From Myxococcales bacterium (GTDB lineage Bacteria > Myxococcota_A > Polyangia > Polyangiales > Polyangiaceae): a stretch of 32,209 bases of DNA. Location of the stretch: assembly GCA_016794325.1 (NCBI GenBank), contig JAEUKG010000259.1, positions 1 to 32,209 of the forward strand, read 5' to 3'. The notes under the pieces are model-generated. The model saw only the letters and a program-made list of their open reading frames with translations, did no database searches and had not been told where the DNA came from. Positions 1,002-24,932 of this stretch are shown one piece after another; within the stretch, counting starts at the first letter, position 1, and the number at the start of each line of letters is the position of its first letter. Made by a program: the position numbers and the translations under genes.

Positions 1002-4000
1002 TCAGCCGACCGCGATGCCGAGCGTGCGGCGGAGCGCGAGGTATTGATCGCTCACCGAGAAGACGAGGAGCTCCTTCATCTTCTCCGCGGGCGGGAGATC
1101 GCCGGGGAGCTGGGGCTCGGCGCCGATGATCTTCTTCGCGATCTCGAGGTCGGCGCAGAGGAGGAGGCCGGCGCGGGCCGCCGTGATCTCCGTCGCCTGC
1201 ATCCAGCGCTTGAGATCCGCCTTCGCGCCCTCCTCGACGAACTTCTGGACGACCAGGCGGAGCGAGTCGCGCTCGACCGGCTGGATGAAGCGCGCGATCT
1301 GCTGCGCCGTCTGGTTCACCGCCTGGCCCATCTCCGGCGGGACCTGGAAGTCCGCCATGATGAGCTTGATCGCGGAGAACAAGACGATCTTGAGCTCGCC
1401 GAGCGTCGGGAAGATGTTCTTGATGTAGTGCTCGCCGCGGTAGCCCGAGAGGTGCTTGCCGACGATGAAGGTGAGCTCTTGGGGCGTGAACCCCGTGAGC
1501 ACCGTCTGCCCGGCGACGCTGGACGGCGGCCTCGACGGCACCGCCACGAGCGCGCCCGGCACGTCGTTTCGGACGTACAGATCCGGGAGCTGGATGCCGA
1601 GGACCTGCGCCGCCCAGCCGAACGTCTTGGCGAACGTCACGGTGCTCGTCGCCGGGTCCTGCTTGAAGCGGCGGTCGAGCACGGGGAGCTGCTTGGCCGC
1701 CTGGAGCGCCTGCAGCTTCGCGAGGACCGCCGACGGCGTGACCATCTCGAAGATCTTGCCGATGAAGATGTTCTCGTCCTTGTGGAAGAGGTTCTTCACC
1801 CACTGCTCGTTGTCGAGGCGGCTCTTCACCTGGATCATGCCGCGGGGGCGGTAGTCCTCGAAGAAGCGCTTCTCCTCCTCGTCCGCGCGCTGGAGGAACG
1901 CGAGCGCGGCGCACATGCACCACGCGCGGTCGTAGTCGTGCATCTTGAGCGCGAGGCGGTAGAGGCTCCGGTACGGATCCACCCGCAGCGGGTCCTTGTG
2001 GAGCACGAGGGAGTGCTCCCCGATCGCCGCCTCGAGCTGCTCGGTGAGCTCGTAGAGCTCGGCGAGGATCTGGCGCTCCACCGGCTCGTCCGGCTTGTAG
2101 CGCGTGGCCATCTTGAAGGCCTCGATCGCGCTGTTCGTGTCGCTCAGGCGATCGCGGTAGATGATGCCGAGCTGGTGCCAGAGGTTGAACTCGAGCTCGG
2201 TGTTGCCGACGTTCGCCGCCGACAGACGCCGCAGCATCTTGCGGTAGGCGCGCTCGAGGTTCTTCCAGTCCTTCTGGCCGGTGAGGATCTTGTTGATGCG
2301 CTCGAAGGCCTCGAGGTAGTTCGGGTTGAGGTCGAGCGCCTCGTTGAAGAGGTCGACCGCGCGGTTCTGGTCGTTCTCCTTGTCGCGGAAGAGCTGCGCC
2401 ATCGTGAAGACGAACTTGCTCTTGCGGACCGGGTCCTTCTCCATGTCCGCGAGGGTCTGGATGGTGTCGACCATCCGCGCCCAGTTGGACGTGGCCTCGT
2501 ACATCGTCAGCATCTTGTGGAGGAGCGGACGGTTGTCGGGCTGGAGATCACGGGCCTCTTCGAGGGCCTCGATGGCCTTGCCCGGGTTCTTGTCGAAGTC
2601 GTTCCAGATGTCGCCGATCTCCGACAGGAGCTTGAAGCGCTCCTCGCCGTCCATCACGTTGTCGAGGATCTGGCGCTTGTAGGCGACGACCTGCTTCCAG
2701 TCCTTGAGGTCGGTGTAGACGCCGACCATCGCCTCGAGGGTCGGCCGGTGCGCGGCGTCGACGCCGAGGGCCTTCTCGTAGTTGTTGATGGCCTGCTTGA
2801 CCTGCTGCTGCTCGCGCTTGATGCAGCCGAGCTTGTAGTAGACGTCGGCGCGCGCCTCGACCTCGTCCTCCCCCAGCGAGGTGAGGACCTTCTGGAAGTT
2901 GGTGAGGGCGCCGCCCCAGTCCTTGAGCTTGAAGCACACCTCGGCGAGGCCGCGGATGGTCTCCTGGTCGGTGAGGTCGAGCTGGTGCGCGGCGCTGTAG
3001 GCCTTGTACGCCTTGTCGTCCTTGCCGAGCATGGCGCAGACGCGACCGAGCTTCTTGTTGAGGTCGTGCTGCTCGTGGCGCTCGCGCTTGCCCGCCTTGC
3101 GGACGAGCAAGTCGAGGAGCGGCTCCGCCTTCTCCCAGCTCTCGCGGTTGATGTATTCGTCCGCGAGCGGAAGGGCCGCCTCTTCGTTCTCGGGGTCCGC
3201 CTCGTGGCCGGCCTCCCACGCGAGCACCGCGCTCTCGTGGTCGCCGAGCATCTCCTGGCGGATCTTGCCGAGCTCGACGAGGAGCCGGGCGCGCTGCCGC
3301 GGGGCCGCGGTGTAGCTCTGCTCTTGATCGAGGTAGCGGGCCGCCTTGTCGTAGTCGGCGTTGTCGAGGGCGATCTGCCGCAGCGAGGCCAGCGACGGGA
3401 TGTGCGAGGGATCGAGATCCAACGCCATCTCGTAGCGGTCCTGCGCCGAGACGCGGTCGCCGAGCTTCTCGTCGAGCGCCTTGCCGATCTTGAAGAAGGC
3501 CTCGACCCGCTGCTTCGTGTCCTGGGTCAGCTCGGCGACGCGCGACATGTAGTCGATCGCCGACTGGGCGTCGTTCTGCTTGTCGTAGAGCTTCGCGAGC
3601 GACTCGAGCGCCGGCAGGTTCTGCTCGTCGAGGTCGACGATGTTCTTGTAGGCGTCGATCGCGCGATCGGCGTCGTCGATCTCGTCGGCGTAGACCTGGG
3701 CGATCGCGCCGTAGAGATCGATCTTGGTCTTGCGGTCGAGGGTCGCGGCGATGTGGCGCTCGTAGGTGTTGATGAGCTCGTGCCACTGCCGCATCTTGCG
3801 GTAGTTCCGCTCGAGGGCGACGTACGCCTCCTCCTGGTTGGGATCGATCTCGATCACCTGCTCGAGGCGCTGGGCTGCGATCTCGGGCTTGAGGAAGTGC
3901 TCCTCTTGCAGGCTCGCGAGCTGCATGAGGATGTCGATGCGCTCGCGCTCGGTGGACACCACGTCGAGCTCCGCCTCGAGCACCTTGACGAGCTCCGGCC

Positions 4001-7000
4001 ACTGCTGGAGGAGCTCGTACGCTCGGGCGAGGCCGCGGAGGCCCTGGAGGTTCTGCGGATCGGCCTCGACCACCTCGCGGTAGGTCTGCGCCGCGCGCGG
4101 GGCGTCGCTCATCTGCTCGTACAGGGAGCCGATGCGGAGCTTCGTGGTCGCGACCTCGGCGGAGTCGCCGAGCGCCGGGACCTTCTTGAGGAGCACGTCG
4201 ACGAGCTCGCGGTTCTGGCCGCGGGACGCGAAGATGCGCTCGAGGTTCTCGATCGCGGCGATGAAGCTCCCGTCGACCTCGAGGGCGCGCTGGAAGTACG
4301 TGATCGCCTGATCCGTCTGCCCCATCTGGGAGTCGAGGAGCTCACCGAGCTCGGTGAGGATCTCCTTGCGGTCGACGTCGGCGACCGCGACCTCGAGCGC
4401 GCGGGTGAGCGTCGCGCCGAGCTGCTGCCAGTTCGCGTTCTTGCGATAGAGCTGGCCCATCTGCCGCAGCGCGCCCACGTTGTTCGGGTCGAGCTGGACG
4501 ATCTGCGCGTAGTAGGGCTGCGCGTATTCGGGGTGACCGAGGTCGTCGCCGTACCACTTGGCGAGGTGGAGGCAGAGGCGGATCTTGTGGTGCGACTCCG
4601 TCTGCTGCTGCAGCCAGTTGTTCGCCGTCTGGATCACCTCGCCCCAGCGCCCGGTGGCCTGCGCCATGCGCTCGAGGTACTTCGCGGTGTCGCGATCGTG
4701 GAAGTCCTCGCCGAGCGCGTTGATGAGCGCGTCGAGGGCCTGGTTCTTGTCCTCGAGCTTCTCCTCGAAGACCTTGGCGATCTTGCGGAGGAGCTCGGTC
4801 TTGTCGCTCGTCTCCTCGCGCGTCTCGAGGCGGGCGAGGTAGAGCTCGATGAGCGGCTCCCAGCGCCCGGCGGCGGTGTGGAGCTTCTCGAGCTCACGGA
4901 AGGCCTCGTCGTGGGCCGGATCGACCTCGAGGACCTTCTGCCAGGCCGGCGTCGCCTTGTCGGGATCCGCCGCCTCGTTGTTCCACATCGCGGCGACGGA
5001 GCGGAGCTCCTCGATCTTCTGCGCCGGATCCTCGAGGGCCGCGGCGCGCTGCATCTTCACGTCGATGACGTCGGTCCAGCGCTCCTCGGCGCGGTAGATC
5101 GCGTCGAGCCGGTCGATGGCCTCGAAGTCGGCGCCGACCTCGAGCAGCTTGCGCCACGCGTCGGCGGCGTCGAACGGCTGCTGGAGGTGATCGCCGTAGG
5201 TGCGGCCGAGCTCGCGGAAGATCTCCTTGAGCTCGTCGCCGTCGAGCATCGCCGCCGCCCGGTCCACGATCTGGTGGAGAGCGTTCACGAGCTCGGTCGG
5301 GTCCTGCTGACGCCGGCGGATGCCGGCGGTGGCGCGGAGCGCGGCCAGGTTCGCGTAGTCGATGTCGAGCACGCGCTGCCAGCTCTCGAGCGCGAGGTCG
5401 TCGCGCTGCATGCGATCGGAGAACACCCGCGCGCGGCGCGTGAGGATGTTGACGCGATCGTCGTCGGCCGACGCGATGTCGAACTGCCGCTCGAGGACGT
5501 CGACGAGCTCGCGCCACGCCTGCTGACCCTCGTAGAGGTTCGCGAGCGCGCCGAGCGCCTCCGGGTCCTCTCCGCGGAGATCGAGGACGACCTTCCACGT
5601 GTCGACCGCGCGCTGCGGGTCGCCGAGGCGATCCGCGGCGAGGTGCGCGATCTTGGCGCGGATCTCGGCCTCCTGGACGTCGCCCGACGCGTTCTCGAGC
5701 TCGCGCTCGTAGACCTCGTTCAGGCGGTTCCAGTCGCCCTGCCCCTCGTAGATGCGGGCGAGCGCTTGGATGGCGCCCTCGTGCGCCCGGTCGAGCCCGT
5801 CGAAGATGCGGCGGAAGGACGCGGTGGCGTTGGGGATGTCGGTGAGGCGGGCCTCGTACACCTCACCGAGGCGCGCGTAGAGCTCCACGAGCTCCACCTC
5901 GTCGGCCGGCGCGCGGACGCGCATCTCGAGGATCTGCGCGAGGTTCTGCCACGACTCCATCGAGACGTAGATGCGGTCGAGGTTCGACAGCGCCTCGGTG
6001 TCTTGCGGGTCGACGCCGAGGACGTATTTGTACGTCTCCTCGGCCTTGTCGATGTCGCCCAGCTCGTCCTCGAACGTCTTGGCGAGCCGCTTGCCGATGC
6101 TCTTCTGAACGGCAGGATCGGTGTGCGCGCCGACGATGTCGGCGTAGGCGTTGGCCAAGGTCTCCCACCCTTGGTCGATCGCGCCCGCGAGGCGCGGAGC
6201 CTCTTCGCTCGCCTTGTCGTCGAGCGGGTACTCCTTGAGCGCGCGGATGTACGTCGCGAGCGTCTGCACCGGGTCGATGAGCTTGTCTTCGAAGAGCTCG
6301 GCGATGCGGTAGTAGGCCGCGAGACGATCCTCCTGGCCGCCGGGGCCCTCGGAGTCCGGGGCCCGCTGCGCGGGCGTGTGGGCGAGCTGCGCCTCGTAGA
6401 CGCGCGACAGCTTCTCCCACTCGTTGGCCTGACGGTAGAGCGGCTCGAGGATCTCGCCGATCTCCATCTGCTTCACGCCGCTCGCGAACAGCGCCTCGAG
6501 CGCGGCCATGGTGGCCTCGTGCTCGGGGGCCGCGTTCAGGACGTCGCGGTAGGCCGCGATCGCCTGATCGAGATCGCCGAGCCGCTTCTCGAAGACCCCG
6601 CCCAAGCGGTGCTTGAACTCGAGGATCTCGTCCGGCGTCTGGCCGATCTCGGCCTCCTTCGCGAGGATCTGGGCGAGCTCCGCCCACTGCTCGGTCTGGG
6701 TGTACAGCCGGTCGAGCGACCGGACCGCGTTCTGGTTCTCGGGGTCGTTCTCGAGAACGCGCCGGTAGCGCTCGATCGCGTGGCGGACGTCCTCGAGCTG
6801 GACCTCGTAGATCTGCGCGACGCGGAGGGCGAGCTCCACCAGCCGCTCGGGCGTCTCGACGAGGCGATCGAGCTCGGCGTCGTAGAGGGTCGCGACGTCG
6901 GGCCAGCGGTTGACCACCATCGCGAGCCGCTCGAGGTTCTGAAGCGTCGCCTCGTTGGCGTTGTCGAGCGGGAGCGCGCGAGCGTACGTCTCGAACGCGG

Positions 7001-10000
7001 CGACGTGGTTGTCGAGCGCGTCCTCGTAGAGGCGCGAGATGCGGTGGAGGAGATCCACCTTCTGGAACGGGTCGGTCGAGTGCGCGACCTGCACCTCGTG
7101 CACGCTGATGAGCTTCGTCCAGTCGCTCGCGGCCTCGTAGACGGGCTCGAGCACCGCGGCCGCGCCGAGCGGGTCGCGGTCGCCGGCCTTCAGGCCCTCG
7201 AGCGCGGCGAGCGTCGGGGCGTGATCGGGCTGGCGACCGAGGATCTCCCGGTACAGCTCGATCGCGCGCGCGACGTCGTCGAGGCGCTTCTCGTACAGAT
7301 CGGCGATGCGGTACTGGAAGCTGATCGCCTCCTGCGGATCGCCCGTCATCTCGCTCTCGCGCGTGAGCACGGAGAGGAGCTCGGTCCAGTTCTGGGCGTG
7401 CTCGTAGAGCACGTCGAGCCGCGACAGCGCCTGGAGATCGTCGGGGTCGAGCTCGAGGATCTTCTGGTAGGTGTCGATCGACTGCGGGACGTCGGAGAGC
7501 TCGCGCTCGTAGACGGCGCCGACCTGGTAGTAGATGCGCTTCTTCTCGTCGGGATCGGCGACGAGGTCGGCCTTCTTCGCGTACACCGCGAGGAGCTCCG
7601 TCCACTTCGACAGCCCGAGGTAGCGACGGATGAGCGAGTCGAGGGCGCGGATGTCGTCCTCGTCGATGCCGAGGACGCGCTTGTAGACCTCGATCGCCGC
7701 CTCCGGCCGCTCGAGGACGTCCTCCTCGATCTGGGCGGCCTGGAAGAGCGCCTCCTTCTTGTCCTGCGGCTCGTCGAGGATCTCGCTCTTCTGCTGGAGG
7801 ATGAGCGAGAGGTCGGCGTAGCGCTCGGTCTGCCGGAACAAGCGCTCGAGGGACTCGGCCGCGGTGAGGTGCGCGGGCTCGATCTCGAGGACCTTGCGGT
7901 AGTGGCCGATGGCCGTGTCGACGTCGCCGATCTCGGTCTCGTAGATGCGAGCGCTGATCATGAGCAGCGAGCTCGCGAGGCCGACGTCGTCGGGCGACCG
8001 GGTCTGCGCCGCGAGCTCGTCGTAGACGCCGCACATGGCGCGGAACTGCCCCGACGCGCGCGCGAGGCGCTCGAAGGTCTGCTGGGTGAGCTCGCTCGCC
8101 GGATCCTCCCGGAGCGCGCGCGCCATGGTGGCGAACGCCGACGAGAGATCGCCCGCGGCGTCCTCGTAGAGCTGCGCGATCTGGTGGAGCAGCTCGACCT
8201 TGCGACCGACGTCGTCGCTGCGGCGCACCTGCACCTCGTGGGCGCCGATGAGCTTCTGGTAGTCGCCGAGGTGACGGTAGAGCGGCTCGAGGAGATCGGC
8301 GATCGCGAGCTCGTACCGCTCGTCTTGGCCGAGGCGCTCGAGCGCGGCGAAGGCCGCGGGGTTCGCCGAGTCGCGCTCGAGGACCGCGCGGTAGGTCTCG
8401 ATCGCGACGTCGACCTGGCCCATCTCCCCCTCGCGGAGGGCCGCGAGGCGGAGCATGAGCCCGATCTGCTCGTCGTCGGTGGTCGCGAGGTTGAGCTGCG
8501 ACTCGAGGTTGTCGGCGAGCTCGCTCCACAGCTTCTGGCGGACGAAGAGCGCGTCGAGCGACTGCAGCGCGCGCGTGCTCGCGGGGTCGAGCTCGAGCAC
8601 CTTCTTGTAGGCCACGACCGCGTCGCCGGGGCGCCCGAGGCGCTCGTCGTGGATCTGGGCCATCTGGACGAAGAGCGCCTCGCGCTGCGACGGGTCGACG
8701 GCCTGGTCGACGCGCCGCTCGATGACGCCGATGAGATCGGTCCACCGCTCGGTGCGCACGAAGAGCTGCTCGAGGGCCGCGAGGGCCTCGGGGTCCGAAG
8801 GCTCGAGCGACAGGACCTGCGAATACGCCCGCGCCGAGTCGTCGACCGACTGCAGCTTGGCGTCGTACACGCCGGCCACCCGCATCCAGTAGTCCCGCGC
8901 CAGCGTCGCGTCGGTGAGCCCCTGGGCGATCTCCTCGTAGAGGACCGTGAGCGGACGCCACGTCCCCGCGACCTCCGCCACCCGCTCGATCTCGGTGCGG
9001 GTGTCGGTCGACTGCGAGTCCTCGCGGAGCGCGCGCGACAGGGCGTCGAACGCGCGGCTCCAGTCGGAGAGCGCCTCGGAGCTGATGCGCGCGATCTTGC
9101 GGAGGATCTGGACCCGCTTGTCGGTCTCGCCCTCCGACTCGGCGAGGATGCCGAGGGCGGAGATGAGCTTCTCCCAGTCGCCGCGCTCCTCGTAGATGGA
9201 CTCGAGGATGCGGGCCGACTCGGCTCGAAGCTCCGGATGAGCGAGCAGCGCCTCGAGCGCGGCGCGCGCGCCCTCGTGCTGCGTGTCGAGGAAGAGGATC
9301 TCGCGGTAGTTCTCGAGCGCACCCGCCGCGTCGGAGAGGTGCTGCTCGAGCGTCCGCCCGAGGCGGTACTTGAGATCGATGAGGGCGGCCTCGGTGTTGT
9401 CGAGCTCGATGCGGCGACGGAGGACGTCGACGTAGGGCTCCCAGCGCGAGAGCTGGCCGTAGAGGCGGTCGAGCGCGGTGAGCGCCTCGACGTCGGTCGG
9501 ATCCTCTTCGAGCACCGCGTTGTAGGTGTCGATCGCGCGATCGACGTCCGCGAGCTGCGTCTCGTAGAGCTGCGCGACGGCGTACGAGATGGCGCGCTTG
9601 GTCTCGGGCTCGGGCGCGAGCTCACGCTTGCGCTCGTAAATTCCAAGCAATTCCGAAAACTTGCCAGTGTCCCGGTACAGCCGCTCGAGGGCCGCGAGCG
9701 CCTCCTCGTTTTCGCCGTCGGCCTCGTACACGGCGCGGTACGCCTCGAGGGCCTCGTCGACGCGCTTGACCTCGTCCACGAGGACGCGGCCCATGCGCAG
9801 GCGCAAGGTCACGGTGACCGCGGGGTCGACCGACGCCTCGATGGCCTGCTTGTAGGACGCGATGAGCTGATCCCACGCGCCGGTCACCTTCGCCGCGCGC
9901 TCGACGTCGATCGTGCTCTGCTCGTCGTGCGGGACGAGGGTGAACGCGACGAGGTAGCGATCGAACGCCTTCTGCGGGTCCTTGACCTTCCCCTCGTAGA

Positions 10001-14003: not shown

Positions 14004-14927
14004 TCAGGGGGCCTTCCAGGGGGCGGCCTTCGGCAGCAGGTGGATGCGCCAATCGTCGGCCGAACCGTTGTGATCCCCGGGCTTTTCGATGGTCTCGACG
14101 GTGAAGCCGGCGTCCTTCAGCTTCTGCCAATCCTGCCGAACTTTGGTGATGTTGAACGAGCCGTCGCCGGTGGCGGCGAAGTGGACGATCGGGAACTTCC
14201 ACGCGGCGCCCGCGATGAGCGCGTCGGCGCCGCCGGGCAGGCCGGTCTTGTAGGCCAGGAGGCCGTCGAAGCGCGACGCGTTCTTGAGGGCAACGGTGTA
14301 GGCGGTGACGCCGCCCGACGAGTAGCCCCCGAGCGTCACCTTCTTGCGGTGCACCCAGAAGCACTCCGCCACGTCGTCGATCGCGGCGAGGACGCGGGGC
14401 TCGTCGGCCGCCGCCCAGCAGTTCTTGGCGGCGTTCTCGATCGCGATCGCGATATACGTATGGGTATTGTGGACCTCGGGAGGGACCGCGCCCCACTCGA
14501 GGAAGTTCTGGGCGTTGTCGCCGCAGCCGTGGAGCACGGCGACGAGCGGGGTCGGCGCGGGCGCCTTGGGATCGTAGCCGTTCGGCAAGCGCGCCCAATA
14601 TTCGCCCGCGGGCGACTGGAGCTTGAAGTAGCCCGACGCGTTCTTGTTGATCGCGCACGTGCGCGTGGGCGCGGGCCCTGGGTCGTTGGGGTCGACGCCG
14701 CCCGACGAAGAGCCGCCCGACGACGAGCCGCCCGACGACGAGCCGCCCGACGACGAGCCGCCCGACGACGAGCCGCCCGACGACGAGCCGCCCGACGACG
14801 AGCTCCCCGACGCGCCGCTCGACGACGACCCGTCGTCCGCGGGCGTGTCCCCTTCGGAGGAGCAAGCCGCCGCGAAGGAGAGGAGCGCGAGAGCACCGAA
14901 GCCGAGAGCGAGGGAGACAAAACGCAT
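14004..14927 (-). CDS. Serine-esterase-like lipoprotein (PHB depolymerase / LpqC-type alpha/beta hydrolase), 307 aa
   Basis: The signal peptide ends in SFAAAC with lipid Cys22. A flexible Ser/Gly stem (residues about 33-77, mostly SSSGG units) then holds the enzyme away from the membrane. The alpha/beta-hydrolase domain (about 95-307) shows an oxyanion-type HGCGDNAQNF (133-142), a nucleophile elbow GYSSG with Ser203, a probable acid in ATGDGS (Asp255) and a probable His in GDHNG (His286), in the order Ser-Asp-His. This matches the polyhydroxybutyrate depolymerase / feruloyl-esterase-like family; the substrate cannot be told, and the domain is compact for the family. It sits between the GltG-like gene and a TPR lipoprotein, with its own TAGACT element 9 nt before the ATG, so it may be an independent insertion into the motility block. 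Hydrolase fold is confident, substrate unknown. Confidence 0.85.
   Translation of the reverse strand: MRFVSLALGFGALALLSFAAACSSEGDTPADDGSSSSGASGSSSSGGSSSGGSSSGGSSSGGSSSGGSSSGGSSSGGVDPNDPGPAPTRTCAINKNASGYFKLQSPAGEYWARLPNGYDPKAPAPTPLVAVLHGCGDNAQNFLEWGAVPPEVHNTHTYIAIAIENAAKNCWAAADEPRVLAAIDDVAECFWVHRKKVTLGGYSSGGVTAYTVALKNASRFDGLLAYKTGLPGGADALIAGAAWKFPIVHFAATGDGSFNITKVRQDWQKLKDAGFTVETIEKPGDHNGSADDWRIHLLPKAAPWKAP
14701..14805 (-). repeat. 15-bp tandem repeat encoding SSSGG units
   Basis: Seven consecutive 15-bp units lie inside the esterase-like gene. Units 2-6 are identical; unit 1 (14701-14715) has one synonymous change and unit 7 differs in its last bases. Near-identity at the DNA level, including third positions, points to recent slippage expansion rather than selection on protein sequence alone. 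Confidence 0.9.
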
Positions 14928-15004: not shown

Positions 15005-15021
15005 TGCGCGACCCGGCGTGC

Positions 15022-17196
15022 TCAGTCGCCCGGGTTGAAGATGATCGGGTAGACGACGGTGACGATGCCGCCCTCGGGCTGCGGGAACGAGAGGTTGCCG
15101 AAGCCGCGGACGACGCAGGACACCACGCCTTGATCCGGGAGATCCGAGCCGCCGTCCGAGGCCGTGGAGACGGCGCCGTTGCGGTCGATGATGAACTTCA
15201 CCGCCACGCGGCCGGCGAGGTTCGGGTTGGTGCGCAGGCCGTTCTCGTAGCAGAGCTTGAAGCGGCCGAAGTTCTGGCGAACGATGCGCTGGATGACCTC
15301 CGGCGGGAGGCGGCCGTTGACCTGGGTGACGCCCTGGCGAACGCTGGGCGACTTGGTCTGGTGCGCGCCGCCGAGGCGGCCGTGGCCGCTGCCGAAGCCC
15401 TGGCCCTGGCCGGTGCCGGCGCCGTGACCGATCGTGCCGATGTTGCCGAGGCCGATGCCTTCGCCGCGACCGCCGCCGCCCTCGCCGACGCCGGAGAGGC
15501 CGAGGCCGCCCGCGCCGAACGAGTCGCCGATCGAGTCGCCCCACATGTTGCCGCGGGCGCTCATCGGGTCGTTGCCGAGCGACTCCTCGCGACCCCAGGG
15601 GGCCGTCGGAGCGTTCGGATCGCCGCCGGCGCCGACGTTGAGGAGACCGATCATGCCGAACTCCGCGGCCTCCTTGAGGGCGGCCTGGCGCGCGATGTGC
15701 GGATCGGGATTGTCCTGCGGACCCTGGACGCCGAAGCGCTTGCCGGTGTCCTTGGTGTTCGGGTTACCCATCGAGCCCTCTTCGCCCTTGGCGCGAGTGC
15801 CCGTGCCACCCTCCTTGTTGTCGGCGGTGTTCTCCGCGACCTGCTCGGTGGGCTTCTCCTCTTGCTCACGCTCGGCGGCGGCGTTGAGCATCTTCTGCAT
15901 GAGGAGGATCTGGTCGCGGTCGATCGCCTCGGCGTCGTCGCCGTTCATCTTCGGCATGAAGAAGGCGAGCGAAGCGACCACGCCCATGTGGAGGAGGAAC
16001 GAGAGGCCGACGAACAGCGGCGCGGCCGGCTCGAAGCTCGAGAACACGCCGGTCGGCGGCGCCTTGCCCGCGTTGACGGCGGCGACCTGGAAGCCGAGGC
16101 CGCTCTCGAGGAACATCTGCGCCTTCGCGCCGCCCGGCATGTCGAACTCGTAGGCGCCGCCCATCTCGCTGGACGGCCGCGCGCGACCGCCGGAGATGAG
16201 ATCCGCGAGCTGAACGCGACCCTGGCCGGGGATGTCGACGTGGCCGCTGGTGCGCGGGAGGATGCAGAGGGAGATCATGCCGCCGCGAACGAGGACGACC
16301 GGCGCGCGGGTCGTGCCGAGGGTCTCGCTCGGGACGAAGTACTGGCAGCCGACCGTCTCCTCACCGACGTAGAACGACGTCGGCGGGTCGAGGTGCTTCA
16401 CGTGCAGCGTGTTCGAGTCCCACAGGACCGAGACCTCCACCGCCGCGCGGTGCGACTCGACCTCGTCCGGGTGGACGTCGGGGCCGGTCTTGATCATCGA
16501 GAACGTGTAGGGCTGGTTCGGATCGAAGTCGCTGCCGCCCGGCGCGTTCACCGCGAGGCCGCCCTGATCCGCGGCCTGGGCCACGAAGGGGTTCGCCGGC
16601 GCGAAGGGGTTCGCCGCGGCGAAGGGGTTCGCCGCGGGAGCGGCGGCCGCCGCGAAGGGGTTCGCGGCCGCGGGGGCCGACGGCGCGGGTGCGAACGGGT
16701 TCGCAGCCGGGGCGGGCGGGGGCGGCGGCGCAGCCTCGGCCGCGGGGATGCCAGGCACGGGCATCGCAGCGGTCGGGGTGTTGATGCGGCCGACGCCGGC
16801 GACCGTGGCCGCGGTGGCGAGCTCCTCGCGCGGCGGCGGCGGGGCGGCGACCGGCGGCGGCGCGACCGAAGAAGCTGCCTCCTGGATGGCCTCGAGCTGG
16901 ATCATCGTCGAGCCGACCTGAATCTGGTCGCCCGGGCGGATCTTGCACTTGTTGACCCGCTGACCGTTGACCATCGTCCCCGGCTCGTTGCCGAGGTCGA
17001 TGAGAGTCACGTCGTCCGCGTTCTGGAGCGAGACCTCGATGACGGCGTGCATGCGCGCCGCGAGATCGTCGTCCACGCGGAGGTGGCTCTTCTGGTCCTT
17101 TCCGACCTTGATGATGTTCTCGGTGATCGAGCGCCGATCGACGAGAGCGTCGCCTTGGTAGATCGCGAAGGTCAGGGTGAAACGTGCCTTTTCCAT
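15022..17196 (-). CDS. FHA / transmembrane / AgmX-PglI C-terminal domain protein (GltG/NfsG-like), 724 aa
   Basis: The N-terminal FHA domain (about 1-103) has VGK at 31-33 and NGQ at 78-80. A Pro/Ala linker with five NPF motifs (166, 179, 190, 196, 202) follows, then a beta-rich module (about 250-375), one membrane helix (about 393-413), a Gly-rich periplasmic stretch (about 465-610) and an AgmX/PglI TonB-like C-terminal domain (625-724) with the family pattern RQNFGRFKLCYE and the paired Cys649 and Cys694. This layout matches GltG of Myxococcus, an inner-membrane TonB-like protein that links the AglRQS motor to the outer envelope; the sporulation paralogue NfsG is the alternative. The ATG at 17196 has GGAAGG 7 nt upstream. 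It follows the GltF-like gene by 79 nt. Oddity: the FHA serine of SxxH appears as Ala (A47-R-M-H50). Architecture is confident; Glt versus Nfs role open. Confidence 0.92.
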   Translation of the reverse strand: MEKARFTLTFAIYQGDALVDRRSITENIIKVGKDQKSHLRVDDDLAARMHAVIEVSLQNADDVTLIDLGNEPGTMVNGQRVNKCKIRPGDQIQVGSTMIQLEAIQEAASSVAPPPVAAPPPPREELATAATVAGVGRINTPTAAMPVPGIPAAEAAPPPPPAPAANPFAPAPSAPAAANPFAAAAAPAANPFAAANPFAPANPFVAQAADQGGLAVNAPGGSDFDPNQPYTFSMIKTGPDVHPDEVESHRAAVEVSVLWDSNTLHVKHLDPPTSFYVGEETVGCQYFVPSETLGTTRAPVVLVRGGMISLCILPRTSGHVDIPGQGRVQLADLISGGRARPSSEMGGAYEFDMPGGAKAQMFLESGLGFQVAAVNAGKAPPTGVFSSFEPAAPLFVGLSFLLHMGVVASLAFFMPKMNGDDAEAIDRDQILLMQKMLNAAAEREQEEKPTEQVAENTADNKEGGTGTRAKGEEGSMGNPNTKDTGKRFGVQGPQDNPDPHIARQAALKEAAEFGMIGLLNVGAGGDPNAPTAPWGREESLGNDPMSARGNMWGDSIGDSFGAGGLGLSGVGEGGGGRGEGIGLGNIGTIGHGAGTGQGQGFGSGHGRLGGAHQTKSPSVRQGVTQVNGRLPPEVIQRIVRQNFGRFKLCYENGLRTNPNLAGRVAVKFIIDRNGAVSTASDGGSDLPDQGVVSCVVRGFGNLSFPQPEGGIVTVVYPIIFNPGD

Positions 17197-17275: not shown

Positions 17276-17560
17276 CTACAGATTCTCGACGGACTTGAGC
17301 ATCTCGGGCACGAACGACGTTCGGGGCCGGATGAGGGTCGTGCGCACCGGCCCGGGGCGAACGCGAATGGTCGCGTCGTTGGGACCGAAGCCACCGGCGG
17401 CGAGCGGATCGTCCGCGAACTCGTAGCCGTAGCCACCGTTCGAGTCGCTCGTCTTCGCGCCGGCGGCGCCACCACCAGCTGCCGGTGCTCCTTGAGCGAG
17501 AGCCGACGCGCTGGCGAACAGAATCCCCGCACTGACCAGGACCGTGAGGAAACGCTTCAT
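17276..17560 (-). CDS. Small secreted protein, 94 aa (GltF-like by position)
   Basis: A signal peptide (residues 1-22, cleavage after ALA) is followed by a Gly/Ala-rich segment and a compact C-terminal half, GYEFADDPLAAGG then IRVRPGPVRTTLIRPRTSF (65-83) and PEMLKSVENL. No known enzyme or binding motif is present. An in-frame start 17 codons upstream exists, but the ATG at 17560 is preferred: AAGGAG lies 7 nt upstream and the signal peptide begins here. It lies between the GltE-like and GltG-like genes, exactly where gltF lies in the Myxococcus gliding cluster, so a periplasmic accessory of that complex is likely. The assignment is by gene order and size only. It is probably co-transcribed with the GltG-like gene from the promoter at 17674-17703. 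Confidence 0.8.
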   Translation of the reverse strand: MKRFLTVLVSAGILFASASALAQGAPAAGGGAAGAKTSDSNGGYGYEFADDPLAAGGFGPNDATIRVRPGPVRTTLIRPRTSFVPEMLKSVENL

Positions 17561-17664: not shown

Positions 17665-17673
17665 TACAGTATT

Positions 17674-17703
17674 AGTGTATCGCCGAGGTGCAGGTCTCGT
17701 CAA
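17674..17703 (-). promoter_or_regulatory. Sigma-70-type promoter for the GltF/GltG-like genes
   Basis: On the minus strand TTGACG (17698-17703) is followed after 18 nt by TACACT (17674-17679). Both hexamers match the consensus well. Start is predicted near 17667, giving a leader of about 107 nt to the ATG at 17560. Confidence 0.55.
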
Positions 17704-17837: not shown

Positions 17838-17854
17838 AAAACGCTAGGCGTTTT
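17838..17854 (-). terminator. Hairpin terminator after the GltE-like gene
   Basis: On the minus strand AAAACGC-CTA-GCGTTTT forms a perfect 7-bp stem with a 3-nt loop, 10 nt past the TAA at 17865. The 3' arm ends in TTTT, giving an A/T-flanked intrinsic-terminator shape that could also act bidirectionally. A 3-nt loop is tight. Confidence 0.5.
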
Positions 17855-17864
17855 GAGCGGTTGG

Positions 17865-19322
17865 TTACGGCTTGGGCGCTTCCTTCGGCGGCTCCTTCGG
17901 AGCGTCCTTCGGGTCGGCCTTCACTTCCATGCTCAAGAACTGGATGGTGTCGTCGATGTCGCCGATGCGGCCGCGGTCCTTGTCGGTCCCATTGCCGCGC
18001 GCGCTCTTGACGGCGCCGTCGTATTCGGGCTTCCCCGCCGCCTTCTCGATGAACTGCTGGTAGATGCCCTTCGCGGCCGTGAGGGCCGCGATGGTCTTGT
18101 CTTTCCCGCCGCCGGCCTTGGCCTTGTACTCCTGGGTGAGGATGCCCTCGTTGAAGTACGCGTCGGGGCGGTTGCCGTCGAGCTTCTTGCAGGTGTCGAG
18201 CTCGGCCTGGACGGCCGCGACCTGCGCGTCGTAGTTCGAGTCGTTGATGAGGCCGCGGAGCGCGAGCGCCAGGCCGAGGTGCGCGTCGTAGTCGTTCGGG
18301 CGCATCTCGAGCGCCTTCTTGTACGCGCCGGCCGCTTGCTCGAAGCCGCGGAACGAGAGGTTGACGGCCGCGTAGTTCATCTGCGCTTCGAAGAACTTCG
18401 GGTCGAGCTTGGCCGCGCTCGCGAACTCGGCGACGGCGCTGTTCACCTGGCCGAGCTCGTTCTGGATGAGGCCCGCGGTGTTGTGGATCGGCGCGTAGCT
18501 CGGGTTCTTGCGGATGGCCTGCGAGCAGACCAGCGCCGCGAGCTCGAGCTGCTGGTGGTCGGCGCGCTTGGCCATCGCCGCGTTGGTGGCGATCTGCCGC
18601 CCACGCGAGCCCTTCTGCGAGCTCTTGATGGCGCCCGCGCGCGTCTTCGCCTGCTGGAAGTAGTAGAGCGCGAGCTGGTTGAACGCCGGCATGTAGGAGT
18701 CGTCGATCGCGAGCGCGCGCTGCAGGTTCTGCTTCGCGCACTCCATGTCGTCCTTGCAGCCCTGGCCGCCCTGGGCGGCGTCGCGCTGCATCTGGAACAT
18801 GGCGAGGTTGACGAGCGCGGGGACGTTCTGGAACTTCGCGTCGAGAACCGCCTGCTGCAGCTCGCTGATGACGCCGTCCTCGTTCTGGTCGGCCTTGTAC
18901 TTGTAGAGCGCGAGCTGCGCGCGCGCGTGGTGGAAGTTGCCGTCGTCGGCGAGGGTCTTCTCGAACTTCGCCTTCGCTTCCTTGTCCATGCCGCAGCGCT
19001 GGTACGCGAGGCCCGCGTTGAAGCTCGCCTCCGGGAACTTGCCGCCCTTCTGCTCCGAGGCCGCGGCCTCGAAGCGCTTGGCGACGTCCTGACACACGGC
19101 GTTGTCCCAGTCGTTGGCCTTGTCGTGACCGAGGAAGGCGTCGATGGCGGCGTTGAACTTGTTCTCTGCCTCCTTCGACACCTGCTCCGGCGGCGTGCCG
19201 CCCGAGCTCGTCTTGCTGCCGCCCGTGTTGGGCGGCGGCTTGTCGCCGCCGCCGCCGCACGCGGCGAGGATCGAGAGGCCGAGGAGGCCGACGGTCGCGA
19301 GAAGTTTGGCTTGCGTCTTCAT
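17865..19322 (-). CDS. TPR lipoprotein, 485 aa (GltE/AglT-like)
   Basis: The lipoprotein signal peptide ends in SILAAC with lipid Cys22, followed by a Gly/Pro-rich anchor. TPR units run from about residue 45 to 430, for example FNAGLAYQRCGMDKEAKAKF and the pattern A..Y.KALEMRPNDYDAH, ending in a Lys/Pro/Ala tail. No catalytic motif is seen. The reading frame extends 40 codons further upstream, but the ATG at 19322 is preferred: GGAGGAGG lies just before it and the signal peptide begins there. It lies 16 nt after the GltD-like gene, so they share an mRNA. In Myxococcus the TPR protein GltE (AglT) follows GltD in the same order and takes part in the periplasmic/outer-membrane part of the gliding complex. 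TPR lipoprotein is certain; GltE equivalence is inferred from order and architecture. Confidence 0.88.
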   Translation of the reverse strand: MKTQAKLLATVGLLGLSILAACGGGGDKPPPNTGGSKTSSGGTPPEQVSKEAENKFNAAIDAFLGHDKANDWDNAVCQDVAKRFEAAASEQKGGKFPEASFNAGLAYQRCGMDKEAKAKFEKTLADDGNFHHARAQLALYKYKADQNEDGVISELQQAVLDAKFQNVPALVNLAMFQMQRDAAQGGQGCKDDMECAKQNLQRALAIDDSYMPAFNQLALYYFQQAKTRAGAIKSSQKGSRGRQIATNAAMAKRADHQQLELAALVCSQAIRKNPSYAPIHNTAGLIQNELGQVNSAVAEFASAAKLDPKFFEAQMNYAAVNLSFRGFEQAAGAYKKALEMRPNDYDAHLGLALALRGLINDSNYDAQVAAVQAELDTCKKLDGNRPDAYFNEGILTQEYKAKAGGGKDKTIAALTAAKGIYQQFIEKAAGKPEYDGAVKSARGNGTDKDRGRIGDIDDTIQFLSMEVKADPKDAPKEPPKEAPKP

Positions 19323-19338
19323 GGTGCTCCTCCTCCCC

Positions 19339-22300
19339 TCACTTCTTTCCACCGGGCAGCGGACGACCGCCGCCCTTGCCTGCGCCGCCCTTCGGAGCCG
19401 CGCCGCCCGCGGCCGGAGCCGCGCCGCCCTTGGACGCCTCACCCTTGTCGTCCTTGGGCTGCTCGGCCTGCGCGGACTTGTCGGGCGCCGCGACCGGCGG
19501 GTGCCAGAACTGGCCGCCCACGAGCACCGGGGGCGACTTCTCGTCGAGGCCGCTGTTGGAGAGCGTGGGCGCTCCGCGGAGCTCGTCGACGACGTGGTAC
19601 TCGGCCTTGTAGTTCTTCGCGAGCCAGACCTCGCAGTTACGCGAGAACTCGTCGAAGTACTGGTAGGTGACCGAGAGCTTGAGGCACTTCTCGAGCGCCG
19701 GCTTCGCGTTCTTGACCTTGTAGGGCTCGGAGGCCTGGTCGAGCGCGTTGTAGTAGGTGTTGCGGAGCTCGTCGTCCGTCTTCCAGGCGGCCGGGATCGG
19801 CGCGCGGCGGAAGTCGTCGACGAAGTCGCCCCACATCAGACCGGAGCGCGAGCCGGCGGCGATGACCCACCGCGGCGGGGGAACGGGCTTGAGCTCGAGG
19901 ATCTTCACGTACTCGGGCTCGACCTGCTCGATGGCCGCCTTCTTCTTCTCGTACCAGTCCTTGACCTTGGTCCCGATGTGCTTGAGGACCTCGTCCTTGC
20001 TCCCCTGCCCCTTGTACTCGGGGAACTTGAGGGGATCGACCTTCGCCTTGCGGGCGTCCTCGGCGGCCATGAAGTAGGCCTCGCCGACGGCGTTGAGGGC
20101 GCGCGCCATTCGCTTGTCCTTCTGCGCGTCGTCCTCGGTCGTGTACGCGGCGCGGATCTTCGCCTCCGCGTCCTGCGGGTTCTGCCAGAGGCCGCGGACC
20201 TTGGCGTATTCGCCGCGGGCCTCGCCGTCCTTCTTCAGCTTCGCGAGCGCCCGCGCGTACGTCGCGTGCGCCTGCACCTGGATGTCGGGAGCGGCCTTGT
20301 CGATCACGCCCATCGAGCCGGCGAACGCCGCGCGGGCCTTCTCCCACTCTTCCTTCTCCGCGTAGTGGGCGCCGATCGCGAACTGGATCGAGGCCGTCTG
20401 CGCGGGCTTGGCGCCGCCGTAGTTCTTGGTGAACAGGCGGGCGTCTTCGATGGCCTCGTTCTCCTGGCCGAGGCCGAGGCGGAGGAGGACCGCGTCGGAG
20501 AGCGCCGCGTCGGCCTTCTCCGCCTTGGGGTCGGTCTTCGCGTACTTCTCGAACCACTCGGCGGCGAGCTCGTAGACGGCGATCGCCTGGTAGTTGCCGC
20601 CGATCTCGTAGACCGCCTTCTTCGCCCACGGAGAGTTCATCTTCGTGCGGGCGTCGAACTCGAGGAGCGCCTTGCGCGCGGTGATCGCCTTGGCGACGAG
20701 GCGGGCGGCCTGGAAGGCCTTCGCCGCGTTGTAGACGATTTCGTCGCAGCGCTCGGCCTGGGGCTGCTGGTTGGCAGCGACCGGGTCCTGGCAGTACTTG
20801 CGGAACATCTCGAAGTACGAGTTGCCCGCGTCCTCGAAGGAGGACAGCGCCGCCGCGCCTTGCTCGGTGTTGGCCTTGGCGATCTTGCCCTCGGCCTTGA
20901 GGCGGAGGAGGTCGACCTGGACCTTGTTGAGGTTCGTGCAGTTCTCGGCGTTCTTCGCGGCCTTCTCACCGGAGCAGTAGAGCTCGATGAACTTCGGCAC
21001 GTCCTGCGCCATGTCGTCGGCGCAGCCGAAGCGCTTCGGCTGGCCGTGCTCGCGGAGCACGTTGATCGACTCGAGATAGAGCTGCGACGCGTAGACGGCC
21101 GAGTCGTGATCCGCGTGGCTGAGCGCCACGTCGCGGAACGCGTAGCCGGCCTCGTCCCAGTGCTGCGCCTCGAAGTAGGTGCGGGCGCGGGCGTACTTGA
21201 CCTCGACGAGCTGGTTCTGCCCCTCTTTGTCGTTCGCGCCGGGCTTGATGTAGCAGATGTAGCGGTTGAACGCCGCGATCATGCCCTTCTGCGCCTCGGT
21301 GAACTCCTTCGGGCGGAGCTTCGCCTCCTCGTCCTCCTTGGAGGCCTTCTTGTCGTCCTTCTTGGTGCCGGGGAGCTGGCCGACGCCCTTCTTCCCCTCG
21401 CCCTTGGCGTGCTGCTGATCGTAGATCTTCTGGAAGCAGAGCACCGCGGCGTACGCGGCCTCGGCGGCCTCGGGCGCGTTCGGGTTCTCGGCGACGACGG
21501 AGTCGAACGCCGGGCCGCACGCGGCCCAGTTCTCCTGGAAGTACAGGAGGTCGGCCATCGCGTACTTGATCTTGTAGATCGTCGGCCAGTCCTCCTTGAC
21601 GATGCGCGGGAACTCGAACTTCGCGAAGTCCTGCGCCGTCCAGGTCTCGGTGACGCGCTTGTAGAGGTACGCCGCCAGCGTCATCGTCTTCTGGTCGCCG
21701 GTGCCGCGCTGGCCCTGCGAGCCGACGGCCTCGAGGTGCCAGGCCATCGCGGTCTCGCTCATGAGCTGCGCCGTCTTGTTGGCGCACTCCTGCTTCGCCT
21801 CGGCGCTCTGCCCGCCGTTCTTGAAGTCGGTGTAGACCTTGAGCTGGTTGTCGAGCTCGCCCTTGATCGGGTCCTTGTTGCCGCCCTTCATCGCCATCGT
21901 GGCTTCGGTGATGTGGGCCTGGTACAGGCAGAACTTGGCGCCGCTCTTGTCGCGGTTGATGAGGTCGCGGTAGAGGATGATCGCTTCCGGATAGTGGCCG
22001 GTGTCCAGGTAGTTCATACCCAGGTCGTCCATCATCTTGAACGTCTTCTCGCTCCCCTGCTGGTCGCCGCTGATGCCCTTGAAGAAGTTGTGGGCCTGGG
22101 CCGGATCGCCCTTGAGCGCGTAGACGGGGATGATGTCGCGACGGGCCGAGTCGCCGAGCTTGCTCGCGCCCGGGAGCTGCGCGTAGGCGACGCTGAAGTC
22201 GATGACCTTCTTGAAGGCGTTGAGCGCCTTGTCGAGCTCACCGGTGTTCCAGTACACGTACGCGAGCTTGTAGAACGCGTAGCCGTACACCTTGTTGTTC

Positions 22301-23142
22301 GGCGGCGGGTACTTGATGACCTCGATGTACGCCTTCGCGGAGAGGTCCCACTTGCTCGGGTCGCCCTGGGCCTCGTTGAAGAAGAGCTCGCCGAACGCGA
22401 GGTAGGCGTTCGGGATGTACTTCGAGTTCGGGCTCTTGTTGATGAGCTCGTAGTAGACCGAGCGCGCCGTCTTGTAGTCGCTCGCCTGCTCGTATTCGTA
22501 GGCGAGGTAGTAGAGGACCTCGTCGAGCTGGGCGTAGTTCGGGTACTCGTTCTTGATGAGCGAGTAGTACTGGATCGCCTTGCCGCGCGCGGCCTTGAGG
22601 ACCGCGTCGGCCTGGTTGGCCTGGGTCTGCTTCTGGCCTGCTTGCTGCTGGTTCGTCTTCTTGAGGTTGTCGCGCTCGATCTCCGCGTTCGTCTTGTCGC
22701 GGAACGCCGCGCTCTCGAGCTCGACGTAGTCCTCGGCGAGTCGGCGAGCGAGGGTCGGACGGTCGGTCGCGTTCTTCGCGGTGGTGTCGAAGAGGCGCTC
22801 GAGGCCCTGGATCTCGGTGACGAGGAGCGCGCGCTGGCGCGCCTGGAGGCGCGACTTGCGCTCGTCGCGCGGGATCTCGTTCATCGACGGCTGGTTCGGC
22901 TTCGTCTGCTGGTCGCGCTTCTTCAGATCCGCCGGGGGCGGCGCCGAGTGGAAGTTGACCTGCGGCTGCTTGCCGTGCGCGCCGACGTTGAACTCCTTCG
23001 GCCCCGCGCCGCCGCACGCCGAGAGTGCCTCTTTGGCCTTGGTTTCGATGCAGACGTTCGCGTCGGCGGATGCGGTGCCGGCGAGCGTGACCGCGCCCGC
23101 GACCGCGAACGCCCCGACCATCCAAGTGAAGACCCGATTCAT
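19339..23142 (-). CDS. Secreted TPR protein, 1267 aa (GltD/AgmU-like)
   Basis: The signal peptide MNRVFTWMVGAFAVAGA... is cleaved after ASA (about residue 26), giving a periplasmic protein. TPR-like helical repeats fill most of the length, with AYEYEQASDYKTARSVYYEL near 235-255 and repeated Y-rich helix pairs. A Lys-rich charged loop lies near residues 575-600, and the C terminus (about 1215-1267) is a Gly/Ala/Lys-rich low-complexity tail. A start 6 codons upstream exists, but the ATG at 23142 has GGGAGGT 8 nt before it and begins the signal peptide. The gap to the upstream gene is 5 nt and its Shine-Dalgarno overlaps that gene's end, implying translational coupling. Size and order fit AgmU (GltD, about 1200 aa, TPR) of the Myxococcus gliding complex, or the spore-coat paralogue NfsD. 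No alignment was run. Confidence 0.9.
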   Translation of the reverse strand: MNRVFTWMVGAFAVAGAVTLAGTASADANVCIETKAKEALSACGGAGPKEFNVGAHGKQPQVNFHSAPPPADLKKRDQQTKPNQPSMNEIPRDERKSRLQARQRALLVTEIQGLERLFDTTAKNATDRPTLARRLAEDYVELESAAFRDKTNAEIERDNLKKTNQQQAGQKQTQANQADAVLKAARGKAIQYYSLIKNEYPNYAQLDEVLYYLAYEYEQASDYKTARSVYYELINKSPNSKYIPNAYLAFGELFFNEAQGDPSKWDLSAKAYIEVIKYPPPNNKVYGYAFYKLAYVYWNTGELDKALNAFKKVIDFSVAYAQLPGASKLGDSARRDIIPVYALKGDPAQAHNFFKGISGDQQGSEKTFKMMDDLGMNYLDTGHYPEAIILYRDLINRDKSGAKFCLYQAHITEATMAMKGGNKDPIKGELDNQLKVYTDFKNGGQSAEAKQECANKTAQLMSETAMAWHLEAVGSQGQRGTGDQKTMTLAAYLYKRVTETWTAQDFAKFEFPRIVKEDWPTIYKIKYAMADLLYFQENWAACGPAFDSVVAENPNAPEAAEAAYAAVLCFQKIYDQQHAKGEGKKGVGQLPGTKKDDKKASKEDEEAKLRPKEFTEAQKGMIAAFNRYICYIKPGANDKEGQNQLVEVKYARARTYFEAQHWDEAGYAFRDVALSHADHDSAVYASQLYLESINVLREHGQPKRFGCADDMAQDVPKFIELYCSGEKAAKNAENCTNLNKVQVDLLRLKAEGKIAKANTEQGAAALSSFEDAGNSYFEMFRKYCQDPVAANQQPQAERCDEIVYNAAKAFQAARLVAKAITARKALLEFDARTKMNSPWAKKAVYEIGGNYQAIAVYELAAEWFEKYAKTDPKAEKADAALSDAVLLRLGLGQENEAIEDARLFTKNYGGAKPAQTASIQFAIGAHYAEKEEWEKARAAFAGSMGVIDKAAPDIQVQAHATYARALAKLKKDGEARGEYAKVRGLWQNPQDAEAKIRAAYTTEDDAQKDKRMARALNAVGEAYFMAAEDARKAKVDPLKFPEYKGQGSKDEVLKHIGTKVKDWYEKKKAAIEQVEPEYVKILELKPVPPPRWVIAAGSRSGLMWGDFVDDFRRAPIPAAWKTDDELRNTYYNALDQASEPYKVKNAKPALEKCLKLSVTYQYFDEFSRNCEVWLAKNYKAEYHVVDELRGAPTLSNSGLDEKSPPVLVGGQFWHPPVAAPDKSAQAEQPKDDKGEASKGGAAPAAGGAAPKGGAGKGGGRPLPGGKK

Positions 23143-23147
23143 TCCAA

Positions 23148-24932
23148 CTACCTCCCACACTTCGAGGTGATCGTCTGCCTGTAGAACCCGAGCTCGTCAC
23201 GCCAGTACTCGCCGTCGAACGGCCAGATGACGTGCTCCTCGTCGGGCTTCACGATGTTGCGCTGCGACTCCTGCACGCTGACCTGCGTGCCGGCGATCGC
23301 CGCGTCGAGCTGGTTGCGCTGCGCGGCGGTGATGTCGATGAGGATCTTCGCGCTGTCGCGGAGGTGCTCGTTCAGCTCGGCGAGGTTGCGCTCGTAGCGC
23401 TCGCGGGCGAGCTGGCCCGCGTTGCGGACGGCGATGTCGCGGGCGAGCTGGAGCGCGTCCTTGACGTCGTTGCCGAGCGCCGACTCCTTGAACGCGCCAG
23501 ACGCCTTCTGGAAGCGCTTGCCCTCGTCGTCCAGCACCTGGACGTACTGGAGGTGACGGAGGAGCTGGCGATCGGAGAGCGCGTTCTTGACGACGATCTT
23601 GATGCGCGGCGGCACGTCGGCCTTGTCGTCGCGGACGTCCTTCAGGAACTTGTAGAACGCCTCTTCCTGGTTCTCGCCGGTGTACTTCTTGAGGACCTTG
23701 GCGAGGTCGTCGTAGATCGGCTGGTACTTCTGCTGGAACTTGGCGACGATCGTGGTCGCGTCGTCGTACTGGCAGTTCGCGAAGTAGATGACCGCCTTCA
23801 GAATCTCCGCTTCGGGATAGTACGAAGCCGGGAAATACGGCGCCTGGATCGTGTGGATGTTGCCGAGCGCGTGCGCGTAGTCGCCGGCCATGAAGTAGGC
23901 CCAGGACTCCTCGAAGAGCCCGTCGAGCCAGTACTCGCTGCCGACGTCGACCTTGTTCCAGTACTTGACCGCGGCCGAGAGCTTGGTCGAGTCGATGGTC
24001 GGCTGGCCGTTCTCGTCGAGGCGAATCGAGGCCGAGTAGTACGTGCGCGCCATCGAGAGGAAGGCGAGGTCGCGCATGCGCGACTCGTCCTCGACGCCCT
24101 CGGCGCCCTCTTCGATCGCGCCGACGACGCGCTGGAACGACTGCACCGCCGGGATCGACTTGCGCAGCTGGACGTAGCTGATGCCCTGGAAGAACTGGCC
24201 CTTGATGTAATACTTGCTCTCGCGCGCGACCTTGCCGAAGAGGCGGATGGCGTCTTCGTACTGGCGGTTGCGGTACTTGTACCGACCGAGCAGGTAGTTG
24301 AGCTGCCAGAAGAGCTCGCGCTGGTTCGAGTTGTCGAACTTCTTGATCTGGTCGTCGGAGTACTTGCCCACGCGCTCGACGATGTCGGCCGGCTCCGGGA
24401 GGTCGGTCGCGAGCTTCGCGAGCCAGAGCAGCGTCTCGTTGAACTTGAGGTGGTTCGGCTTGTCGGCGATCTCGGAGAAGATGCCGTACGCGGCCTGGTA
24501 GTACTTCAGGCGGTAGAGCGCGATCGCGAGGTGGTACTGCGCGAGCTGCTTGTTGCCCTCGTCGTCGCCCGTCTCGCCCTTGGCGACGCGGTTGAGCGCG
24601 AGCGCGGCGTCGGACCACTTCTCGCCGTCGAAGAGGCGCTTCGCTTGCGCCGCCTGCTCCGTCATCTGGCCGGCCTGCGGGGGCGGGCCGAGGTCCTTCT
24701 GACCGCCGCCGGCGGCCGGCGTCGTCGGCTCGTCGAGCTCGATCTCCGTGCCTCCGCCCTTCGGCGCGGTGCCGCCCTTCGGCGCGGTGCCGCCCTTCGG
24801 CGGCGTCGGAGCGCCACCCTTGGGCGCGGGAGGCTTCGGCTTCGGCTGCGCGTACACGCTGCCCGATGCGAGCGTGAGCGACAGGAGAGAGACCTTCGCG
24901 AGGAGCAGCGTTCGAGCGAGAGTCTTACGCAT
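23148..24932 (-). CDS. Secreted TPR protein, 594 aa (GltC/NfsC-like)
   Basis: The signal peptide is cleaved after VYA (about residue 28), so the protein should be periplasmic. A Pro/Lys/Gly linker (about 29-75) with repeated PKGGTA units comes next. TPR-like repeats follow from about 90 to 430, including AQYHLAIALYRLKYYQAAYG and LGRYKYRNRQYEDAIRLFGK. The C-terminal 150 residues are Arg/Glu-rich helices ending in a short segment with WPFDGEYWRDELGFY. No enzyme motif is seen. It is the first gene of the C-D-E-like set, with a sigma-70-type promoter near 25132-25161. In the Myxococcus nfs operon the C gene directly precedes D, and GltC is a periplasmic TPR protein, so this is the likely equivalent. 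The ATG at 24932 begins the signal peptide; its Shine-Dalgarno is weak. Confidence 0.87.
   Translation of the reverse strand: MRKTLARTLLLAKVSLLSLTLASGSVYAQPKPKPPAPKGGAPTPPKGGTAPKGGTAPKGGGTEIELDEPTTPAAGGGQKDLGPPPQAGQMTEQAAQAKRLFDGEKWSDAALALNRVAKGETGDDEGNKQLAQYHLAIALYRLKYYQAAYGIFSEIADKPNHLKFNETLLWLAKLATDLPEPADIVERVGKYSDDQIKKFDNSNQRELFWQLNYLLGRYKYRNRQYEDAIRLFGKVARESKYYIKGQFFQGISYVQLRKSIPAVQSFQRVVGAIEEGAEGVEDESRMRDLAFLSMARTYYSASIRLDENGQPTIDSTKLSAAVKYWNKVDVGSEYWLDGLFEESWAYFMAGDYAHALGNIHTIQAPYFPASYYPEAEILKAVIYFANCQYDDATTIVAKFQQKYQPIYDDLAKVLKKYTGENQEEAFYKFLKDVRDDKADVPPRIKIVVKNALSDRQLLRHLQYVQVLDDEGKRFQKASGAFKESALGNDVKDALQLARDIAVRNAGQLARERYERNLAELNEHLRDSAKILIDITAAQRNQLDAAIAGTQVSVQESQRNIVKPDEEHVIWPFDGEYWRDELGFYRQTITSKCGR
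24755..24808 (-). repeat. 18-bp repeat in the Pro/Lys/Gly linker of the GltC-like gene
   Basis: An 18-bp unit encoding the six residues of the PKGGTA repeat occurs twice perfectly (24755-24772 and 24773-24790) and a third time in diverged form. It looks like a local slippage duplication. Confidence 0.75.

Follow-up and report, generated by a model that had tools for sequence, protein, structure and literature searches.

Gene content of the cluster

The window, which is the whole stretch of 32,209 nucleotides analysed here from a Myxococcales bacterium of the Polyangiaceae, is the entire contig C324 of a genome of 8.7 Mb (88% complete, 1300 contigs). It carries C, D, E, F, and G genes of the Glt/Nfs family on one strand, two lipoprotein genes, and a giant gene, with promoter-like sites as follows:

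25132-25161, minus strand: promoter-like site upstream of gltC, TTGACA-18-TACCAT (consensus match only)
23148-24932, minus strand: gltC homologue, 594 aa, secreted periplasmic TPR protein
19339-23142, minus strand: gltD homologue, 1267 aa, secreted TPR protein
17865-19322, minus strand: gltE homologue, 485 aa, TPR lipoprotein (lipobox LAAC)
17674-17703, minus strand: promoter-like site upstream of gltF, TTGACG-18-TACACT (consensus match only)
17276-17560, minus strand: gltF homologue, 94 aa, secreted protein
15022-17196, minus strand: gltG homologue, 724 aa
14004-14927, minus strand: esterase/PHB-depolymerase-like lipoprotein (NF050058, E=1.2e-9)
12949-13893, minus strand: TPR lipoprotein, 314 aa, in the gltH position (lipobox TGGC)
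1002-12551, minus strand: giant TPR protein of GltI (AgmK) type, 3849 aa

The genes named in an earlier sequence-only reading are correct, but its list omitted two genes that separate gltG from the giant gene, those of the esterase-like lipoprotein and the TPR lipoprotein. The codon-position G+C of all genes in the block is that of real genes, and gltC, gltD, and gltE are tightly spaced, with gaps of 5 and 16 bp. Two promoter-like sites were found in the region, where 0.5 would be expected; lying before gltC and gltF, they suggest two putative transcription units, C-D-E and F-G-onward. Long open reading frames on the plus strand (e.g. 1044-12533) were rejected as genes, being antisense shadows of GC-rich genes. 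The esterase-like gene is a probable passenger gene, seen among the relatives compared only in G005.

Family identity of the encoded proteins

Curated NCBIfam models strongly confirm the identity of C and G, and weakly that of E and F; these matches, and the recurrence of the order in the phylum, go far past what chance would give. The GltC homologue, the sole full-length GltC in its own genome, matches NF033756 (E=4.5e-93, 313 bits) over positions 95-619 of the 622 in the model, and the GltG homologue matches NF033760 (E=1.4e-84, 285 bits). The GltE homologue matches NF033758 (E=1.9e-18, 67 bits), and the gltE family is kept in the same position across loci. For the GltF homologue, the CglF model NF033764 gave E=0.003 and 17.5 bits over residues 10-94; gltF homologues in the equivalent position of relatives score up to 129 bits. 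None of the four proteins reaches its NCBI equivalog cut-off (C 313 of 450, E 67 of 225, F 17.5 of 90, and G 285 of 650 bits). Therefore, by the NCBI standard, they are relatives of the Glt proteins but not Glt equivalogs.

The GltD homologue had no match to any curated Glt model. GltGs that score near or above the NCBI cut-off, from loci L165, L172, L220, and L227, were used here as proxies for Myxococcus xanthus, and a profile built from the GltD family of the window finds the D proteins beside GltGs of cut-off grade with 604 and 560 bits. The identity of D is supported by profiles and position. The family comparison proposed in the sequence-only reading bears out its assignment of all five proteins, four by Glt models and D by this profile.

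The domain layout agrees with that tabulated for M. xanthus (PMC3169522): GltD has a TPR near residue 290, GltF has 89-94 aa, and GltG has an FHA domain, a transmembrane (TM) helix, and a TonB-like tail. In the window, TPR_2 of GltD lies at residues 288-315, as compared with 280-306 in the published protein (PMC3169522). The GltG homologue has an FHA domain at residues 30-95 (PF00498, E=5.1e-12), one TM helix near residues 394-412 (a hydrophobic segment) followed by a Gly-rich periplasmic arm, and an AgmX/PglI (TonB-like) tail at residues 632-721 (NF033768, E=9.5e-24). Matches in the PDB were limited to FHA, TonB, and generic TPR.

The giant protein lacks a signal peptide and should therefore be cytoplasmic, rather than among the exported parts. 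Its C-terminal domain of about 300 aa is not TPR and can be aligned throughout the phylum. In G040, GltJ is the first recognised gene to follow the giant gene, which places the giant gene in the GltI position; therefore, the protein is taken as GltI-type, as the sequence-only reading had held. A degenerate M48 peptidase, suspected by eye from a motif in the C-terminal domain, was dropped since Pfam gave no match. A single-sequence structure model of this domain was uninformative (mean pLDDT 34.5).

Gene order, phylogeny, and parts outside the window

The unsplit C-D-E-F-G order, which the sequence-only reading considered special, is true of the window but not special to it. Of the 106 GltG-bearing loci examined (a few genomes are counted twice), 80 have C-D-(E)-F-G without a break, including those of Labilithrix, Sandaracinaceae-type, and Lujinxingia genomes. 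Therefore, the unsplit block is the usual and probably the ancestral state, and the split gene order is most simply a derived one. The cluster is ordinary, and had been read as rarer than it is. GltC is present in 152 of 191 genomes of the phylum, and in 38 of 39 in the search of relatives; no relative of the block was found on viral contigs. L161, L172, and L207 are also unsplit; in these loci, barrels immediately precede C, and GltH follows G. A Sorangium locus (L218) reads D-E-F-G-lipoprotein-giant and is cut before C, and L227 ('Cystobacterineae') reads D-E-F-G-H-giant with no C nearby, as in M. xanthus. Grouping in Anaeromyxobacter and the contiguous nfsA-H were previously reported by Luciano et al. 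(PMC3169522; also PMC3858216), and gltC was unlinked in most Deltaproteobacteria of the 2011 set (PMC3169522).

The slot between gltG and the giant gene holds the TPR lipoprotein in 73 loci and the GltH barrel in nine, and never both. No profile match to GltH was found in the locus contexts and those contigs of this genome that were searched. The TPR lipoprotein is conserved and apparently undescribed, as no description of it was found in the literature consulted. Most simply, the lipoprotein would be old, and GltH would have taken its slot in the Myxococcus lineage.

The nearest relatives of the window are Labilithrix metagenome-assembled genomes (MAGs) and G001, with identities to one Labilithrix MAG of 76% over GltD and GltG and 79% for GltG. 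In both the GltG tree and the GltD+GltG tree, the window stands beside Labilithrix in a clade (support 100) of lipoprotein-bearing clusters. In the latter, this Polyangia clade also holds Sorangium, and the GltH-type clusters, including the GltGs of cut-off grade, form a separate clade (96). G040, which has both the lipoprotein and GltJ, diverges basally on the GltH side (85). The AU test (17 rows, LG+G4) rejected a grouping of the window with L165, L172, and L227 (p = 2.4e-5). A GltG tree had been suggested in the sequence-only reading as a check on membership of the Glt/Nfs clade; the GltD+GltG tree places the window outside the clade of cut-off-grade GltGs. Since the M. xanthus Glt and Nfs proteins are absent from the trees, the placement relative to Glt/Nfs rests on these proxies and on the published view that Glt and Nfs are recent duplicates (PMC3858216). 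By that proxy, the sequences place the window in a co-orthologous lineage and not between Glt and Nfs. The window shares gene order, TPR lipoprotein, and giant gene with the clusters of Sorangium, Labilithrix, Sandaracinaceae, and Lujinxingia, and differs from them in the inserted esterase-like gene.

No barrel, GltJ, or motor had been seen in the window by the sequence-only reading; a search of the rest of the genome found barrels and a motor, but no GltJ. An AglRQS-type motor is encoded on contig C694 by one ExbB-like gene and two ExbD-like genes that follow the aglR-Q-S order, and a second AglQ-like gene is on contig C985. A motor unlinked to the cluster is normal, since millions of bases separate the AglQ genes from the cluster in G021, a complete genome. 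Contig C81 has a tandem pair of GltA/B-type barrels beside ftsY, the first of which matches a GltA/B profile with E=1e-38. In G020, G021, G022, and G036, about 7 kb separates gltC from barrels and a gene in the ftsY position on its upstream side, and the conserved block between gltC and the barrels in these four relatives is also found at the right end of the window. Therefore, C81 is probably the next contig; the ends of C324 and C81 do not overlap.

GltJ was found at E<=1e-20 neither in this genome nor in 12 other Polyangiaceae (13 genomes in all). Most of the Polyangiaceae genomes searched have at least one unlinked GltG paralogue, many of which are without the FHA domain. In M. xanthus, GltJ is essential for gliding. 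It is an MglA effector in Myxococcus (PMC12288465).

A putative gliding machine and its alternatives

The cluster is a real one for a motor-driven envelope-spanning machine of the myxobacterial gliding kind: its genes, their families, order, and conservation, and the presence of motor and barrel genes are observed. We infer that the products assemble into one complex, couple to the motor encoded on C694, and function in gliding. The block is thus read as the proton-driven force transducer of an Agl-Glt-type machine for gliding, with a probability of about 0.65. Counted in favour of this reading were the matches of C, E, F, G, and the GltG tail to family models, the phylum-wide order, the motor, and the barrels; counted against it were the scores below the cut-offs, the lack of a GltJ match in the Polyangiaceae genomes searched and of a GltH match in the stretches searched, and the motor unlinked to the cluster. 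The presence of these genes is not proof of gliding.

The machine may potentially be described as follows. The proton-driven AglR-Q-S motor in the inner membrane would pull on the TM region of GltG. The FHA domain of GltG would face the cytoplasm, in which the giant GltI-type protein may form a scaffold towards the cytoskeleton. The Gly-rich arm and TonB-like tail of GltG would reach periplasmic GltC, D, E, and F, which in turn may couple to the tandem pair of GltA/B-type outer-membrane barrels. As the complex moves in cycles, it would then displace surface adhesins or slime, resulting in gliding. In the lineage of the window, the TPR lipoprotein would fill the GltH slot and GltJ would be lacking. 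For M. xanthus, a contact between AglR and GltG has been published, as has a link between motor and MreB in the cytoplasm through GltI and GltG (PMC3169522, PMC13104615).

The block resembles the M. xanthus Agl-Glt system (gltA-K, aglRQS) in having GltC, D, E, F, G, and I-type proteins with the same domain plan of GltG, and in a genome with GltA/B-type barrels and an AglRQS-type motor, here on other contigs. It differs in that C is not split from D-G, the TPR lipoprotein replaces GltH, GltJ was not found in the Polyangiaceae searched, and the scores are below the NCBI equivalog cut-offs.

It is unlikely, though worth some weight, that the block represents a machine from before the Glt/Nfs duplication with dual use in gliding and surface-polymer transport. 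Since only one GltC of full length was found in this genome, there is no sign of a separate Nfs-type set, and the position outside the clade of cut-off-grade GltGs also fits; however, diverged paralogous sets on contigs C263, C478, and C403 could hold the second function, and the genome is 88% complete.

An Nfs-like machine, in which the complex is driven around the cell and wraps a surface polymer (spore coat or capsule) without gliding, appears improbable. C-D-E-F-G is contiguous and in the same order as in the spore-coat cluster nfsA-H of M. xanthus, Nfs also has no GltJ, and NfsG runs on the same AglRQS motor (PMC3858216). Unlike Nfs, however, the block has a GltI-type giant gene and is without A, B, and H, and barrels lie about 7 kb away in the relatives of the window, as compared with directly upstream in Nfs. 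Furthermore, Nfs has been published as a recent duplicate in one terminal branch, whereas the window branches outside the clade of cut-off-grade GltGs, and no capsule genes adjoin the block within the window.

A non-motile envelope system of TonB/Tol type, serving import or envelope maintenance on an ancestral core complex, is very unlikely. Core genes are present in non-gliding Gammaproteobacteria (PMC3169522), and proteins with AgmX tails are plentiful in this genome (29 matches). In Gammaproteobacteria and Geobacter, the core complex (gltC, D, E, G, and aglRQS) has, like the window, contiguous core glt genes; however, the motor genes are unlinked in the present genome, and the GltI-type scaffold, GltF, and GltA/B-type barrels, which are present here, belong to the expanded set. 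An evolutionary intermediate between Glt and Nfs with a kept or rebuilt unsplit order, as the sequence-only reading had proposed from that order and its GltI-type gene, is hardly credible, since the arrangement is phylum-wide and the Polyangia clade and AU test exclude the window, by proxy, from the clade of cut-off-grade GltGs.

Under the Agl-Glt-type reading, there may be two machine architectures in Myxococcota, a tentative scheme to which somewhat less than an even chance is given. In the ancestral one, seen in the window, the lipoprotein would lie between gltG and gltI, and Polyangiaceae would do without GltJ, with an unlinked FHA-less GltG paralogue supplying, as a guess, the second TonB-like arm; in the Myxococcus one, GltH would have replaced the lipoprotein. 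If this is true, gliding machines would have in the lipoprotein a structural component that is as yet undescribed. The gene arrangement itself is of little weight, except that it points to the split order of the model organism as derived. What is noteworthy is the exchange of lipoprotein and GltH together with the apparent absence of GltJ across Polyangiaceae. Since relatives of Sorangium and Labilithrix apparently do without GltJ, it becomes testable how general the Myxococcus machine is.

Genes around and within the glt block

The conserved block upstream of gltC consists of HEAT, membrane protein and UPF0102 genes. Three features of the window lie within or beside the conserved gene order:

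1-867, minus strand: truncated gene for an FHA-domain sigma-54 activator
14004-14927, minus strand: esterase-like lipoprotein gene
27021-29099, minus strand: gene for a Cys-rich lipoprotein-like protein of 692 aa

The Cys-rich protein gene interrupts the upstream block, and its product had no Pfam match. The esterase-like gene is an insertion separating gltG from the TPR lipoprotein gene; among the relatives compared, it was found outside the window only in genome G005. In some other Myxococcota (loci L140 and L188), additional AgmX-tail proteins separate the same two genes.

The 3' end of the giant gene

The C-terminal domain of the giant protein (1002-2000, minus strand) is kept phylum-wide, and Pfam and PDB sequence searches with it returned no meaningful match. 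The activator gene lies directly downstream on the same strand, and a giant gene followed by a sigma-54 activator-like gene also occurs in some relatives.

Paralogous sets and unlinked GltG copies

Diverged paralogous sets and further GltG-like genes are located elsewhere, the first four on other contigs of the same genome:

C263 (locus L030): diverged set, barrel-B'-C'-D'-E'-F'
C478 (L046): diverged set, D-E-F-x-G
C403 (L045): another GltG-like gene
C1048 (L032, 8728-10527): unlinked GltG paralogue without the FHA domain
L185 (9791-12022) and L306 (3731-5956): second, FHA-containing GltG, unlinked

A polysaccharide-export gene is close to the C478 set. The second FHA-containing GltG, from Polyangium sp. 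15x6 and genome G015, adjoins a short-chain dehydrogenase gene, and unlinked copies resembling the FHA-less paralogue are present in most Polyangiaceae searched.
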